Below are positions 33,871 through 48,904 of a stretch of DNA of 64,000 nucleotides, one piece after another. Source of the DNA: Desulfurobacteriaceae bacterium (lineage in GTDB: Bacteria; Aquificota; Aquificia; Desulfurobacteriales; Desulfurobacteriaceae). The position numbers were made by a program, and so were the translations under genes. The notes under the pieces were generated by a model. It worked only from the letters and a program-made list of their open reading frames with translations. It did not search any database and had not been told where the DNA came from. The stretch spans positions 1-64,000 of the forward strand of contig JAMOTD010000006.1 in the NCBI GenBank assembly GCA_027068415.1, given 5' to 3'. The number at the start of each line of letters is the position of its first letter. Position 1 is the first letter of the stretch.

Positions 33871-34278
33871 TTGAAAGGGCTTGAAAAGGTAGTAGCTCTT
33901 AAAGAGAGAGAGCTAAAGAGGAAACAGGAAGAGCTCAACCTTCTTACGGCAAGGGAAAGGGCTTTAAGGCTTGAAATTGAAAGGGTTGAGGGGGAAATTT
34001 CTTCCCTCAAAGTATTGAACCCTGAATCTGTATTACAGTTTGCCCTAACGAGGGAGGTTTTGGGAGAGCTCCTAAGGAAGAGGGAAGGGCTGAGGAGAGA
34101 GCTGAAGGAGCTCTCAGAGGAGATTGAGGAGAAGAGGGAAGAGCTGGGGAAACTGAGGGGAGAGGTAAACCTCATAAAGGAGCTTTTAAGGAAACGGAAG
34201 CTGAGAGAGGAGCGAGTTGAAGAGGTTCTCAATGAGAGGTTTATCTATCAGGTTCTTTATGGCCGTAGCAGCGGTTAG
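33871..34278 (+). CDS. fliJ: FliJ-like flagellar export coiled-coil protein
   Basis: 135 residues from a TTG start one base after the upstream stop. Nearly the whole chain is coiled coil in two helices, with LKGLEKVVALKERELKRKQEEL at the start and a basic end, the size and layout of FliJ, the stalk-like partner of the FliI ATPase. Sequence conservation in FliJ is low, so the call leans on shape and flagellar context. fliI itself is in the minus-strand series. Confidence 0.65.
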   Translation: MKGLEKVVALKERELKRKQEELNLLTARERALRLEIERVEGEISSLKVLNPESVLQFALTREVLGELLRKREGLRRELKELSEEIEEKREELGKLRGEVNLIKELLRKRKLREERVEEVLNERFIYQVLYGRSSG

Positions 34279-34720
34279 CCTTCTACTGCAGCCGGCCTCG
34301 GCTCAGGAAAAACTTGAGGTTAAAGAGGCAAAGAAAGAGATAGAGAGACTCGTTAAGCTGAGGGAGGAGGTAAAGAGGTTAATTGAGGAGAACAAGGAGC
34401 TCTTAAAGAAGATAGAGGAGGAGAGGGAAAAACTGAGGAGGGAGAGGGAGGAGTTTGAAAAGAGAGTAAAAGAGGTTAAAGCCCAGAGGTACGAGAAGCT
34501 GGCTCAGGTCTTCTCAAAGATGGACCCAGAGCTTGCAGGTCAGAAGATTTCGGCCTTCTCAGACCCAAAAGAAGCCGCCTACATACTCTACAACATGAAG
34601 TCAAGGAAGGCGGGAGAAATCCTCAACTACGTTGACCCAAAGGTCGTTGACGAGATAGTAAGGATACTGACCTCAATCAAAGGGAGCTCCGACGGCGGTA
34701 AATCCTTGCCAAAATCTTAG
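34232..34720 (+). CDS. MotE-like periplasmic protein (signal peptide, coiled coil, MgtE-N fold)
   Basis: About 162 residues from ATG 34232. A signal peptide (RFFMAVAAVSLLLQPASA) is followed by a coiled coil (EEREKLRREREEFEKRVKEVKAQ) and a C-terminal domain with FSKMDPELAGQKISAFSDPKEAAYILYNMKSRKAGEILNYVD-type repeats, like the MgtE N-terminal domain. MotE of epsilonproteobacteria has this design and helps MotC reach the motor. The start lies inside the FliJ-like gene; the 3' end overlaps flhB on the other strand by 44 bases. Confidence 0.75.
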   Translation: MRGLSIRFFMAVAAVSLLLQPASAQEKLEVKEAKKEIERLVKLREEVKRLIEENKELLKKIEEEREKLRREREEFEKRVKEVKAQRYEKLAQVFSKMDPELAGQKISAFSDPKEAAYILYNMKSRKAGEILNYVDPKVVDEIVRILTSIKGSSDGGKSLPKS

Positions 34721-42744: not shown

Positions 42745-44298
42745 TTACCTCTCCTTCAGCCACTTGCTGACTACGTTGGCAATGAGGTCGGGGTAGTCTT
42801 TCGCAACCTCTACGACTTTAAGGTAGGTCGGGTCTTTCTCAATTTGGAGCTCTTTAAGCTCCTCCTCGTGCTCGGCTCTTGCCCTCATCTGCTCAAGGAG
42901 CTCTGCAGGAACTTGCTCCTCTTCCTTCCCTTTCCTTAGGAATTTAAAGGCAACGAAGCCGGAAACCCCCAAAAGGAGAAGGGCGGCGGCAAGGAGGTAG
43001 TACCACGGCACCTGCCTCTCCTCCTCTTTGGGGGTAAGAAGTGAAGCCTCAAAGGGGACGCTGGCTACCGTTACTCTGTCTCCCCTCTTGGGGTCGTAGC
43101 CTATGGCACTCTTAACAATCTCCTCGTAGGTCTTGAGCTCCTCTTGAGAGCGGGGAATAAACTCGTACTTAACGGTTTCGTCTTTCTCCTTAACCTCTTT
43201 GTACTTCCCGTCTACCAGAACTCCTACCGTGATTCTCTTTATCTTGAAAATCGGCGAAACCGTACTCTCAACGGTCTTTGAAACGTCGTAGTTTGTGGTT
43301 ACGTCCTTCTTTTCCCTCTTTATAACCTCTCCCTGAGGCTTGGTGTTTATAACGGGGGGAACATTTGTAGGTGTTCCGGGAGCCCCCTGAGGGGTTTTCT
43401 TAACGGAGCTCTCCTTCTCCTGAACCTTCCTTTGGCTTACAACTGCGGTCATGTCGGGGTCGTAGAGCTCCTTCCTCTTTTCAATTTTTCCCGTCTCAAC
43501 CTCAACCGAGGCGCTTACAACAACCTTGCTGCCCCCCAAAGCCCTTGATAGGAGTTCCCTTACCTTTCTCTCTATGTCCCTTTCAAGCTGTCTCTTTATT
43601 TTGAGCTCCTTCGCGGGAGCCTCCTCACCCTCTATCAGGTCGGTAAGAACCCTTCCCCTGCTGTCAACTACGGTAACATTCTCGGGCTTTAAACCGGGAA
43701 CGGCGTGAGAGACGAGGAAGACTATCGCCTTTACCTGCTCTTTGGTTAAGTCCCTTCCCGGCCACAGGTCAACCAGAACCGAAGCCTTGGGCTCGGAGGT
43801 CTCCCTGACAAATATTGAGTCCTTGGGAAGGGCTATGTTTACCTTAACGTCTCTTATCGCATCTATTCTCCTGATTGTCCTCTCAAGCTCGCCCTCAAGG
43901 GCCCTCAGGTACTCAAGGTTTTGCTGGAACTGGGTTATGCCCAGCTTGGGCTCGTCAAAGATTTCAAACCCGACAACTTTACCGTGAGGAAGACCTTTTG
44001 CCGCAAGCTTTAGCCTTACTTCATAGACCTTATCCTTGGGAACGAGAATAATACTTCCGTCGCCGACAACTTTATAGGGAATCTTCTCTTCCTGAAGGAC
44101 TGCAAGAATTTGACCGGCGTCGTCGGGGGAGAGGTGGGTGTAGAGAACGGCGTAATCGCTGCTGGAACTTCCCCTGATGATAACGAAGGAGAGAATTGAA
44201 ACTATGGCGAGGGCTCCCAGAAGAAGGGCAATATTGCGGGGATTTGCGTTTTTGGAGAAAAAGCTCCTAAGCTCTTCCTGAAGCTTCCTTATCTCCAC
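42745..44298 (-). CDS. fliF: Flagellar MS-ring protein FliF
   Basis: 517 residues. N-terminal membrane helix (IALLLGALAIVSILSFVII), ring-building motifs YAVLYTHLSPDDAGQILAVLQEEKIPY and GIDELGKLGI-type FDEPKLGITQFQQNLEYLRALEGELERTI, and a second membrane helix (YYLLAAALLLLGVSGFVAF near 430). The C-terminal tail (ELQIEKDPTYLKVVEVAKDYPDLIANVVSKWL) is the FliG-binding region. Confidence 0.97.
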   Translation of the reverse strand: MEIRKLQEELRSFFSKNANPRNIALLLGALAIVSILSFVIIRGSSSSDYAVLYTHLSPDDAGQILAVLQEEKIPYKVVGDGSIILVPKDKVYEVRLKLAAKGLPHGKVVGFEIFDEPKLGITQFQQNLEYLRALEGELERTIRRIDAIRDVKVNIALPKDSIFVRETSEPKASVLVDLWPGRDLTKEQVKAIVFLVSHAVPGLKPENVTVVDSRGRVLTDLIEGEEAPAKELKIKRQLERDIERKVRELLSRALGGSKVVVSASVEVETGKIEKRKELYDPDMTAVVSQRKVQEKESSVKKTPQGAPGTPTNVPPVINTKPQGEVIKREKKDVTTNYDVSKTVESTVSPIFKIKRITVGVLVDGKYKEVKEKDETVKYEFIPRSQEELKTYEEIVKSAIGYDPKRGDRVTVASVPFEASLLTPKEEERQVPWYYLLAAALLLLGVSGFVAFKFLRKGKEEEQVPAELLEQMRARAEHEEELKELQIEKDPTYLKVVEVAKDYPDLIANVVSKWLKER

Positions 44299-44301
44299 CT
44301 T

Positions 44302-44589
44302 TTACACCTGCATTCTCATAATTTCCTGATAGCTTTCAAGGGCCTTATTCCTGAGCTCAACCAAAAGCCTCAGGGAGAGCTCGGCCTTCTCAACAGTAAA
44401 GAGGGCTTCTTCAAAGCTCTTAACCCTTCCCTCGGCAAGGGCTTTTTCAACCTCCCCCGCCTTAAGCTGTTGAGAGTTAACTTCTTTAAGGAAGTCTTTC
44501 AAAACCGCTTCAAAGGAGCTCTCACCCCTACCCTCTTCTCTCCCATTCACAGGGGTAAAGGGAAGGGAATTAAGCCCTTCTATCCTCAT
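44302..44589 (-). CDS. fliE: MS-ring/rod adaptor FliE
   Basis: 95 residues. FEAVLKDFLKEVNSQQLKAGEVEKALAEG and ELSLRLLVELRNKALESYQEIMRMQV are the conserved FliE segments; the final RMQV is typical. FliE joins the rod to the MS ring. Three bases separate it from fliF. Confidence 0.95.
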   Translation of the reverse strand: MRIEGLNSLPFTPVNGREEGRGESSFEAVLKDFLKEVNSQQLKAGEVEKALAEGRVKSFEEALFTVEKAELSLRLLVELRNKALESYQEIMRMQV

Positions 44590-44600
44590 CTACCTCCTCC

Positions 44601-45008
44601 CTAAGCCTTTAAAATCTCTATTGCATTTAAGAGCATTCCCTTGCTTGTGTTAAAGGCAGTAAGGTTTGCCTCATAACTCCTCATTGCATTTAAAACGTCA
44701 ACCATCTCCCTCAGGGGATCAACGTTGGGGAGCTTAACGTACCCCCTGCTATCTGCGAGGGGGTTTCCGGGGTCGTACTTGAGCCTGTAGGGTGATGGGT
44801 CTTCTTTAATTTCCTTTACCCTTACTCTGTAAAGTGAAACTTCCCCCTCCTCAACCAGAACCGACTCAAAGACGGGAACCTTTCTGGTATAAGGTTTTCC
44901 GTTCTCGTCAACGGAGTTTGAATTTGCAAGGTTGCTTGAGGCAACGTCAATCCTTACCCTCTGGGCAAGCATTCCGGAAAGTGAGACCTCAAGCCCTTTG
45001 AAAATCAT
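44601..45008 (-). CDS. flgC: Proximal rod protein FlgC
   Basis: 135 residues. GLEVSLSGMLAQRVRIDVASSNLANSNSVDENGKPYTRK and VKLPNVDPLREMVDVLNAMRSYEANLTAFNTSKGML are canonical FlgC segments. The start overlaps the flgB stop. Confidence 0.96.
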   Translation of the reverse strand: MIFKGLEVSLSGMLAQRVRIDVASSNLANSNSVDENGKPYTRKVPVFESVLVEEGEVSLYRVRVKEIKEDPSPYRLKYDPGNPLADSRGYVKLPNVDPLREMVDVLNAMRSYEANLTAFNTSKGMLLNAIEILKA

Positions 45009-45382
45009 TACCTACCCCCCATAACCAACTTCAGCTTTCCCACCTCTTTTCTAAGAACTTCGTTTAAAGTTCTGGCCATAATTGCCGTCTCTGCAAGTTT
45101 TGCAAGCTCTTTATCAAGGTTAACCCTGTTGCCATCGTACCCGGAGACGTCATCAAGGGTAATCTCCTTAAACTTTACCCCCCTTTGCGGCTCAGGCTCA
45201 ATGTGGCGGGGGTCTGTCTTTTTAAGCCTTATCTCCTCCCTCAGCTCCCTCTCAAAGAGGAGCTCCTTGGGCTTGTAAAAGGGGGTATCGGCGTTTGCTA
45301 TGTTGCTCTGGATAACCTCAGAACGCCTGTAGAAGTACTCTATTCCCTCTTCAATTGGCTTTAGCCGGCGAAAGAGCTCCAT
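45008..45382 (-). CDS. flgB: Proximal rod protein FlgB
   Basis: 124 residues from the ATG at 45380-45382 (MELFRRLKP); a frame to 45448 lies in the upstream TPR gene and has no similarity. SEVIQSNIANADTPFYKPKELLF and a C-terminus ELAKLAETAIMARTLNEVLRKEVGKLKLVM are FlgB segments. It overlaps the TPR gene by 32 bases and is thus coupled to it. Confidence 0.95.
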   Translation of the reverse strand: MELFRRLKPIEEGIEYFYRRSEVIQSNIANADTPFYKPKELLFERELREEIRLKKTDPRHIEPEPQRGVKFKEITLDDVSGYDGNRVNLDKELAKLAETAIMARTLNEVLRKEVGKLKLVMGGR

Positions 45383-47297
45383 CTCTAATCTCCCTCTCAA
45401 GGAGAGTGTTCTGGTAAACGGTGGTTGAAAGGGTAGCCATTGAGTCAAGGCACTTGCTGACGACCGGGTAGACCTTTGCCGCCTCCGAGAGCTCCCCCAA
45501 CCTCGTTGCAGAGAGGAGGAGATAACTCCCGATTAAACAGTTCTTATAACCTCCCTCGTAGAGAGCTTTAGCAACCGAGTGGGCCACCTGGTAATCTCCT
45601 CCCAAAGTCGCCCTTTCAAGGAGTTTATCAAGCGCCGCCTTCACAACAAGCTCCCTTCCGTAATTCTTAATTAAATCTTCTTCAAACTTTTTAAAATTAG
45701 TGAACGCTGATTCAATCTTACCAATTTCTGAGAGATAGTAAATAGCCACACTTGAAACTTCAAGCTCATTTTCCCTACAGGCAGAGCTTAAAACTTTAAG
45801 GTTCGGAGTCTTCACCGGCAGGAAGATGCTTATCTCGGCTTTTAAAAGGAGGTAGTCGCACCTCCTCTTATTCTTAACCTGACTTAATACTTTAAGCGCC
45901 TCCTTAAAGTCCCTCGTATCAACGAGGGCACGGGCCATCATAATGCGGCTGTCGTCATCCTTCCACCTCTTGAGTATGAAGGAGAGGAGCTCCAACCTCA
46001 AGCGCCTCATGTTGCACTTTTTAAGGTCGGAGGCAAACTTGAGGAGAACTCTCCTGCCGAAGAGCTCCTGAAAGAACCGCGGGTTTGAGCGGTAGAGGGC
46101 ACATCCCTTGTCGGCAGGCAGCTTAAGGAGGTAGGGCTTCCAAAGGTACCTTATAAACTCCCTCTGCTCGTACTTAACCTCCTCAGGAAAGACGAGGGAG
46201 ACCTCCCAAGTCAACCTCTTAAAGGGCTCTTTAAGGGAGTCAAGTTTAAAAACGAGGTAGCCCAGGTCTGCAAGGGCGTATATCCCGACGTAAGTAGTCC
46301 TGTAGTTTACAAGGATTGAGGCTATGTACTTTATCGGGTCTTTAAAGGCCTCGTCCTGAGTAAGCATAGCCCTGTACTTAATTTCGGGCCTCTCCATCAT
46401 CGGAATTATCTTTAGGCGCGCCACAACCGCCTCGAGGGAGTCGGGGTAGTCCCTTATAACCGAGTAGTAGTAGACGAAAGCCAACTTGTAATTGCCCTTT
46501 TTAAGCTCAACGTCCCCCAGCCTCAAAGTTGCCCTTCTTACAACCTCCCTGTCTCTGGTAAGGCTGACAATTCTCCTGAAGAGCTGCTCTGCAAGGGTGT
46601 AGTTGCCTATTCTGTAAATGTTCTCAGCAACTAAAAGGTAATAGGAGGGGTTGTCTATCAGGTATTCTTCATATTCCTTGTAGAGCTTAAAGAAGTAGGG
46701 AAGGGCCTCTCTGTACTTTCCTTTGGAAAAGAGGGCAAGGCCTTTAATAAAGGTAATCTCCTTCTCCTCATCCTTATTCAGCTTGTTCTGGGTGCTTATA
46801 AGAATGAAGTACTCGTCAACTATGTCCGGGCGCCTTATCCAGACGGCCGTCCTTATTATTCCGACGGTCGTCTTAACCTTCTCTTCTTGAGTTTTGGCCT
46901 TCAAAAAGGCAACCCTGTAAACAGCCAAGGCCTGCTCGTAGAATGAGAGGGCTTCGTAGATTCTGGCTTTAGTGAAGTAGTAGTCCCAAGGGAGTTCTCC
47001 CTTACCCACCTCAATAAAGTAGAGCTGAAGGTAGTTTAAGGCCTGCCACAGGTACTTCTTCATTCCCGTCTTTCTGCCTATGGCGTAGTAAGTCTTGGAG
47101 AGCATTAAGAGGGCATCTTTATAGTACTTTGAGCCGGGCTTTAAGAGCTCAAGGAAGTAGTTGAGGGCAGTAGAGTAGGAGCCTATCCTGTACTGGTAGA
47201 GTCCCTTCTTAAAAATCTTTCCGTCCCTGTCTATCTCAACCTTACCGTAGGAGGCCGTTGAAATCAGAAGGATAAGAGCAATGGCCAACCACCTCAA
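45351..47297 (-). CDS. Large periplasmic TPR protein in the rod operon
   Basis: 648 residues. A signal peptide (MRWLAIALILLISTASYG) is followed by a solenoid of TPR or similar helical repeats over the whole chain, for example GLYQYRIGSYSTALNYFLELL, KARIYEALSFYEQALAVYRVAF and AENIYRIGNYTLAEQLFRRIV. No membrane helix or catalytic motif is seen. It lies between fliK and flgB and overlaps both. In Campylobacter and Helicobacter, PflA and PflB are periplasmic TPR-like proteins that build the disk and hold stators; a similar scaffold role here is my inference from design and position. Confidence 0.8.
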   Translation of the reverse strand: MRWLAIALILLISTASYGKVEIDRDGKIFKKGLYQYRIGSYSTALNYFLELLKPGSKYYKDALLMLSKTYYAIGRKTGMKKYLWQALNYLQLYFIEVGKGELPWDYYFTKARIYEALSFYEQALAVYRVAFLKAKTQEEKVKTTVGIIRTAVWIRRPDIVDEYFILISTQNKLNKDEEKEITFIKGLALFSKGKYREALPYFFKLYKEYEEYLIDNPSYYLLVAENIYRIGNYTLAEQLFRRIVSLTRDREVVRRATLRLGDVELKKGNYKLAFVYYYSVIRDYPDSLEAVVARLKIIPMMERPEIKYRAMLTQDEAFKDPIKYIASILVNYRTTYVGIYALADLGYLVFKLDSLKEPFKRLTWEVSLVFPEEVKYEQREFIRYLWKPYLLKLPADKGCALYRSNPRFFQELFGRRVLLKFASDLKKCNMRRLRLELLSFILKRWKDDDSRIMMARALVDTRDFKEALKVLSQVKNKRRCDYLLLKAEISIFLPVKTPNLKVLSSACRENELEVSSVAIYYLSEIGKIESAFTNFKKFEEDLIKNYGRELVVKAALDKLLERATLGGDYQVAHSVAKALYEGGYKNCLIGSYLLLSATRLGELSEAAKVYPVVSKCLDSMATLSTTVYQNTLLEREIRDGALSPAKAN

Positions 47298-48904
47298 ACT
47301 CTCAACTCCGTTAACCTTTCTCTTACTTCACCTCTACCCTTAACCTTCAGGTAAACCTTTCCGGGAGTAAACCCGGAGGAGCGGATAATTGTGCGAATCT
47401 CCTGAGCGAGGAAGGGCTCGGCAGAGAAAGTCTCGGGAAGGTGGAGAGTCAAGTTCAGAAACCCCGCCCTGTTAAAGGAGAGCCTCATTAAGACCTCACC
47501 GTTCCTAACGACGAAGCTGTGGAAGTTGGAGCTTGTAGCGGCGGAGTGTCTCGGAGCTCCGCTTCCGTTTCCTTCAGAAGGTTTCCAATCGTGGCTATGG
47601 CTCTGCTCTTGGGAAGGTGAAGGCAGAGAAAAAGAGGTTGTAGGTTTTTGGGCGTGATAAACCGAAATCTTCCTATTTAGTTCAACTCCCTCAGTAGTAA
47701 AGGAAGAAGGAGTATAGGAACTCTGAGAATCACTTTCGGGAGAAGGCTTAACATCCCATTCCTTAAAGTCGGAGCTCCGAAACTTTAAAGAGGGCTCCTT
47801 AACCTCAAAGTTCAAGAGTTTACCCTTCCTCTTTTTGGGTTTTACGGTGGGAGCCTTTACCTCCTTTATCTTTTCCGAAACCTCAGCAGAAACCTGCGGC
47901 CGGCCTTTCTCTACCGGAAGCCCTTCAGGAAAAATTTTTTGTTTTGCTTCTTTTAAGAGCAGAGCTCCCTCCTTTACGGCCGCAAACTCCCTCCCCAAAA
48001 ACTCAAATTCACCGCCTTTTAAGGGAGCTTCCGGCTTTCTTTCTGCGGTAAGGGGACTTTTTTTCCTCTCCTTTTGCAAGGAAAAAAGTTTTTCAGCCGG
48101 ACTTTCTTTAATTTCTTCGGTTTCAGCTAAAGGAGGAAAAGTAAGAGTTTTCCTCTTTTCACCTTTCCCCGAAGAGGGAAGAGTCTTATCAGCCCTCTTT
48201 AAAGGCTCAGAAGTCTCGCCGGAAGGAGGCAGGTGACTTCTGCAGCGAGGTACTCCCTTTAAAAGCGAGGAAGGAGCTTTTTTATTCACTTTAACCATCT
48301 TCTCCGAGTAATGGAACCTTATCTCTTTTCCCTTTTCATCGGTTAAATTTTCGGTAGAGCCGGCTTCTTTTAGCTTCTCAAAAGTCTTCTCAGAGCTCTT
48401 AGGGGTTAGGGAGAGGGGAGTTGGCGGCGTGGGAGTAGATTTAAATTCCCTTGAGTTTGCTTTTTTACCTGTAAATCCCTCCTTTTTGGATTTAACAACA
48501 GCCGACGCCGACTTTTCTTTTAAACCTTCCAAATTTTCTAAAACCCTTAACTCCTCTACCCTTTCTCTTTTATCTCTTTTAGTCCTTTCCCATTTTTTAA
48601 ATTCCGGATTTTCCTTCTCTACGGTTCTCTTTACAGCCCTCCCTTTAGGCCTCTCGGCCACTTTAGAGAGAATAACAGAAACCCCGTGGGCTTTAAATAA
48701 GGGGAGAGGAAATAACTTGCCGGCCGTCTTCGGCCGAGTTTGAAAACCGGCTGAGTGCACCTCTTCTAAGTCCTTAAATTTCAAAACTTCCTTAAAAAGG
48801 AGACGTTCAAATGGAGGAGCTCCCTTAGAAGCGACGGTTAAAACCTTTTTCCCCTCTGTATTTAACTTCGGGTTAACTTTTAAAAGAAGGTTGAGAAGTA
48901 CCAT
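47294..48904 (-). CDS. fliK: FliK-like hook-length control protein
   Basis: 536 residues. Most of the chain is low-complexity, rich in Lys, Glu, Pro and Ser, as expected for the flexible ruler of FliK. The last 90 residues (VVRNGEVLMRLSFNRAGFLNLTLHLPETFSAEPFLAQEIRTIIRSSGF) look like the C-terminal domain that contacts FlhB. The call relies on this end and on position next to fliA and the rod genes. GAGAGGAG precedes the ATG. Confidence 0.75.
   Translation of the reverse strand: MVLLNLLLKVNPKLNTEGKKVLTVASKGAPPFERLLFKEVLKFKDLEEVHSAGFQTRPKTAGKLFPLPLFKAHGVSVILSKVAERPKGRAVKRTVEKENPEFKKWERTKRDKRERVEELRVLENLEGLKEKSASAVVKSKKEGFTGKKANSREFKSTPTPPTPLSLTPKSSEKTFEKLKEAGSTENLTDEKGKEIRFHYSEKMVKVNKKAPSSLLKGVPRCRSHLPPSGETSEPLKRADKTLPSSGKGEKRKTLTFPPLAETEEIKESPAEKLFSLQKERKKSPLTAERKPEAPLKGGEFEFLGREFAAVKEGALLLKEAKQKIFPEGLPVEKGRPQVSAEVSEKIKEVKAPTVKPKKRKGKLLNFEVKEPSLKFRSSDFKEWDVKPSPESDSQSSYTPSSFTTEGVELNRKISVYHAQKPTTSFSLPSPSQEQSHSHDWKPSEGNGSGAPRHSAATSSNFHSFVVRNGEVLMRLSFNRAGFLNLTLHLPETFSAEPFLAQEIRTIIRSSGFTPGKVYLKVKGRGEVRERLTELRV

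Follow-up and report, generated by a model that had tools for sequence, protein, structure and literature searches.

In Campylobacter, PflA is an exported protein with a TPR superhelix behind an N-terminal β-sandwich; it builds the spokes that run from the FlgY E-ring to the stators (PMC12222027, PMC13023049). The solenoid of Helicobacter pylori PflA spans residues 195-801 (PMC11392913). PflB is a second long periplasmic TPR solenoid of this motor, carrying a transmembrane anchor and a cytoplasmic tail, and a β hairpin in the middle of the solenoid is used in the literature to define it. MotC of Sinorhizobium and MotK of Cereibacter, as described in a review, are likewise periplasmic, TPR-rich and paired with a MotE protein, and are counted as PflA relatives by the review authors (PMC13023049). 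The spirochete collar proteins FlcA and FlcB are also TPR-rich and work with FlbB, the MotE homologue. Furthermore, it has been proposed that single TPR proteins encoded near flagellar clusters are PflA analogues, in about half of flagellated species. A preliminary description of the gene analyzed here held that its design is unlike that of any standard flagellar gene, a statement contradicted by these systems and by the published survey (PMC11870540, PMC13023049).

The gene was found in a window, that is, the whole stretch of DNA analyzed, of 64,000 nt from a thermophilic Desulfurobacteriaceae bacterium (GCA_027068415.1, contig JAMOTD010000006.1, positions 1 to 64,000, forward strand). It occupies positions 45351..47297 on the minus strand, with a TTG start at 47297 and a stop at 45351-45353, and encodes a TPR-solenoid protein of 648 aa, predicted to be periplasmic. 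The preliminary description was right about this open reading frame, the strand being minus, and about its placement between fliK and the rod genes. The stop codon of the FliK-like gene directly upstream (47294..48904, minus strand) shares the four bases TTGA with the TTG start, and the likely ATG start of flgB, at 45382, lies 32 bases within the 3' end of the TPR gene. The FliK-like gene has no match among the Pfam and NCBIfam models and is named only from its position and C-terminal pattern, both conserved in about 85 loci. The rod gene flgB (45008..45382) was recognized by a weak Flg_bb_rod match and synteny, and it is followed on the same strand by a second rod gene, flgC (44601..45008; Pfam Flg_bb_rod and Flg_bbr_C), fliE (44302..44589; Pfam FliE, 5.5e-23), the MS-ring gene fliF (42745..44298), fliH and fliI. 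The name fliF was given from sequence appearance and the conserved gene order rather than from a Pfam scan, and the gene showed about 50-80% identity to the loci of relatives in BLAST. The TPR reading frame is not a chance one, since it is conserved over an alignment of 50 orthologues, in which 41 columns are nearly invariant, and the gene order is kept across two phyla.

A hydrophobic signal-like N-terminus was predicted in all 51 aligned family members, at about residues 1-18 in the window protein, and a second hydrophobic segment was seen in none of the 51. An AlphaFold2 model of the window protein, built with 33 orthologues in the alignment, showed a solenoid made up entirely of helices, 39 in number (mean pLDDT 90.9). 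These predictions agree with the secreted, periplasmic solenoid proposed in the preliminary description. Pfam detected generic TPR repeats only, NCBIfam gave no named family above its cut-off, and a PDB sequence search returned designed or generic TPR proteins only. The cysteines of the window protein number exactly six and form three pairs spaced by 27-29 residues (399/428, 480/507 and 587/616). Among the 51 sequences, both partners were present in 45 and both absent in 6 for the first pair, 49 and 2 for the second, and 51 and 0 for the third, so that the partners of each pair come and go together without exception. In the model, each of the pairs 480/507 and 587/616 connects the beginning of a helix with the far end of the helix that follows it in a hairpin. 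The natural reading is that the three pairs would form disulfides in the periplasm.

To follow the gene through the phylum, 61 Aquificota genomes were sampled, with FliM presence used as the marker of a flagellum. The TPR gene was found in 49/49 FliM-positive genomes and in 3/12 FliM-negative ones (Fisher p 1.3e-8, with no correction for kinship). Of the three FliM-negative carriers, two are fragmented drafts. In the third, G060 of the group f4, which we infer to be Aquificaceae, FliM was undetectable, yet the TPR-flgB-flgC-fliE-fliF block and MotE are kept. Within f4, the TPR gene and FliM are jointly missing in at least three separate places, comprising five g15 genomes, G034 (g14) and G038 (g11). 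G034 has a MotE-like match nonetheless. Because every FliM-positive genome carries the gene, its absence from motile relatives, which the preliminary description had named as evidence that would speak against it, was not observed.

Direct orthologues are present in the groups f1, f2 and f3 (Desulfurobacteriaceae and Hydrogenothermaceae). Every f1 and f3 locus read has the order fliK-TPR-flgB-flgC-fliE-fliF, and in every locus read of f1, f3 and f4 the TPR gene adjoins flgB, directly upstream. In f2, it lies outside the operon and away from flgB, still behind a gene with a FliK-like C-terminus. First searches suggested that the gene is absent from Aquificaceae and matched TPR proteins of about 850 aa (e.g., L060), which are not orthologues, as no flagellar genes were recognized around them. 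The suggested absence was overturned when the protein in the flgB slot was read and compared: in Aquificaceae, the gene directly before each flgB encodes an exported protein about 600 residues long. The profile of this family (18 members, 18/18 directly upstream of flgB) matched that of the window-protein family over its full length (hhalign, E 7.6e-22 over 559 columns), a kinship visible by profile comparison only. In five Aquificaceae loci (L142, L143, L144, L147 and L153), the TPR gene overlaps the 3' end of a gene that occupies the place of fliK and resembles, by appearance, a queuine tRNA-ribosyltransferase gene. Taken together, these data indicate that the TPR gene is a true flagellar gene, fixed to the Aquificota flagellar cluster.

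When an alignment query was scanned over the contigs of 84,980 genomes, about 15 Campylobacterota loci, many of them titled Nitratiruptor, were found with the Aquificota-type gene order; a single-protein query gave no match in the same kind of scan. The flagellar cluster of Nitratiruptor is known to have been acquired from Aquificota (Mo et al. 2022, PMC9321776), and the TPR gene travelled into Nitratiruptor-type Campylobacterota together with it. Pairwise distances among the TPR proteins correlate with the FliF distances (Mantel r 0.87, 0/999 permutations). In the TPR tree, the Campylobacterota sequences formed one clade (93/89) that was not nested in Persephonella, so that the recent transfer from Persephonella described in the literature is not directly mirrored in this gene tree.

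Strong matches to the Aquificota-type TPR protein were found in 7/200 Campylobacterota genomes. FliM was present in 7/7 of these carriers, and canonical PflA and PflB queries, their identity verified by comparison with the solved motor scaffold 9hmf, detected PflA and PflB in 0/7. PflA was detected in 85/101 Campylobacterota genomes, and none of these 85 had a strong match to the TPR protein. Some weak Campylobacterota matches to the window-protein query were PflA or PflB themselves, at E values that generic TPR proteins also reach, and these were set aside. A preprint states that Nitratiruptor has PflA and no PflB (PMC11870540); the protein counted there as Nitratiruptor PflA is probably this TPR protein. 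Three genomes of the same class as the Nitratiruptor genome G136 (G151, G173 and G187) are FliM-positive and gave neither PflA nor the TPR protein.

The window genome has in common with PflA-bearing organisms a flagellar protein with a predicted Sec signal peptide, a TPR superhelix of about 600 residues and a gene for a FlgY/MotE partner. In a PDB fold search with the window model, the PflA chain 9hmf_K, the identity of which was confirmed, came first of 350,542 chains (E 1.1e-8), and PflA ranked fourth when the independent model of an Aquificaceae homologue was used. The TM-scores to PflA were 0.26-0.31, with eukaryotic TPR proteins almost as high. A profile comparison (hhalign) matched the whole PflA solenoid over 576 columns with E 1.1e-12 and a score of 113; as an unrelated long TPR family used as a control did equally well (E 1.9e-12, score 108), this match was dropped as proof of kinship. 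Because of this control and the low TM-scores, common descent with PflA is unproven by sequence or fold; the likeness, as far as sequences and predicted models can tell, is inseparable from that of other long TPR solenoids, and we do not assign the protein to the PflA family.

There are also clear differences from the Campylobacter proteins. The window protein lacks the N-terminal β-sandwich/AMIN domain and the linker that dock PflA to PflB; its model contains no strands and its TPR helices begin right at the mature N-terminus, and the N-terminus of the Aquificaceae homologue is signal-like only. It also differs from PflA in its predicted disulfide pairs and in its gene position, the fliK-flgB slot rather than a place beside nuo genes. 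PflB (9hmf chain L, 9leq chain B) resembles it as a long periplasmic solenoid of the motor, with a fold match at rank 35 and a weak, partial profile match (E 2.5e-5). Neither the hairpin that defines PflB nor its anchor was seen in the window protein, in the model or the 51-member alignment, and the lack of an anchor shows that it is not PflB. The model of the Aquificaceae homologue has one small antiparallel β hairpin in mid-solenoid (residues 376-385; L142:8120-9919). FlcA was ruled out as an identity by its NCBIfam model, which gave no match to the window protein; against the Aquificaceae homologue, this model reached 0.00035, far under the cut-off.

The TPR proteins surveyed in PMC11870540 share with the Aquificota family a single copy, a place inside the flagellar cluster and a FlgY homologue in the genome, and the Aquificota family is an instance of this published class of PflA analogues. 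Within this class it is specific in the absence of a β-sandwich, in its paired cysteines and in its phylum-wide slot before flgB. Aquificota are mentioned nowhere in the main text of that preprint. The family appears to be undescribed in the main texts searched, and these yielded no published Aquificota motor structure.

The window also encodes the MotE-like protein mentioned in the preliminary description, a MotE/FlgY/FlbB-type E-ring protein at 34232..34720 on the plus strand (ATG at 34232), with a signal peptide, a coiled coil and an ARM-like MgtE_N domain (2.9e-6, above the cut-off). It stands behind a fliJ-like gene (33871..34278, plus strand), named by position and a coiled-coil SPAM-type match just below the cut-off (3.9e-8), and MotE was found also in FliM-positive relatives. 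Given the MotE/FlgY gene in the window genome and in relatives, and the rank of PflA in the fold searches, the reading that fits best is that of a PflA-like spoke: the TPR protein is probably a fixed part of the motor that connects the stators with the MotE/FlgY E-ring. According to this hypothesis, a soluble protein exported by Sec would fold to a superhelix, its C-terminal half stapled by three disulfides, and its copies would be arranged round the basal body as radial spokes. Each spoke may touch the E-ring encircling the MS-ring at one end and meet FliL and the periplasmic part of MotB at the other, by which stator units would be placed and held. The protein would thus fill the role of PflA (or of MotC/MotK or FlcB) alone, with neither a PflB rim nor a basal disk. 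Of the equivalence to PflA and PflB suggested in the preliminary description, the data support a periplasmic motor solenoid, with PflA as its top PDB fold match, that occurs in recipient Campylobacterota lacking PflA and PflB. They do not support disks, as no FlgP/LPP20 family protein of the basal disk was found in the window's genome, the recipient clade has no PflB and the PflA β-sandwich is missing; the enlarged motor with extra stators is a guess.

A gene placed next to the rod genes could just as well encode an assembly factor as a spoke. A periplasmic TPR chaperone or placement factor could bind FlgB, FlgC or FliE, or act at the rod-P-ring stage, and leave after completion of the rod. 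The neighborhood of flgB is the most constant feature of the gene, which overlaps flgB translationally, and TPR proteins are assembly factors in many cases. However, no such factor is known to be needed for rod assembly in well-studied flagella, the gene order ties the TPR gene to fliK too, with the f2 gene lying away from flgB, and a superhelix of fixed length, about 630 residues, is more like a scaffold than a small chaperone. We regard this role as unlikely. Less probable still is that the protein acts on the stator side in the manner of MotC/MotK, binding MotB in the periplasm and activating or anchoring stators without a spoke to the E-ring. MotC and MotK work with MotE, which is encoded here, and are periplasmic and TPR-rich like the window protein (PMC13023049), and the genome has two MotB-like genes; yet these proteins are known here by review description, and this reading overlaps that of PflA, since the review authors count MotC and MotK as PflA relatives. 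The two MotB-like genes adjoin each other outside the window (G000:C15:95409-96270; L278, L279). Aquifex has a second MotB too, so the pair is probably ordinary. A general envelope protein of the BamD/YbgF/LapB type merely riding in the flagellar operon is highly improbable: generic TPR and YbgF-like models are the best Pfam and NCBIfam matches, but the NCBIfam matches are all far below their cut-offs, and the gene disappeared along with flagella on at least three occasions and was transferred with the cluster to another phylum.

If the protein is a PflA-like spoke, a further and more tentative possibility is a minimal scaffold, in which MotE and a single disulfide-stapled solenoid position the stators without PflB, cage or disks, and which may have entered Nitratiruptor as a working module, replacing the whole Campylobacter-type scaffold. 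Such a scaffold would show a form of the spoke without the PflA β-sandwich and the minimum required for holding stators. The question of E-rings and spokes in early flagellar motors has so far rested on TPR proteins that are untraceable by sequence. Gene order, co-loss and profile homology allow the Aquificota family to be traced across an entire deep-branching phylum, and it can be pursued into a second one, in which it is found in place of PflA and PflB. For this reason, the motors of Nitratiruptor and of Persephonella or Aquifex constitute a natural swap experiment on what a spoke needs to hold stators. Outside Nitratiruptor, a contig titled Sulfuricurvum sp. MAG (L120) showed the Aquificota-type TPR-flgB-flgC-fliE-fliF order on a long branch; either the transferred cluster has spread more widely or the bin carries the wrong label.
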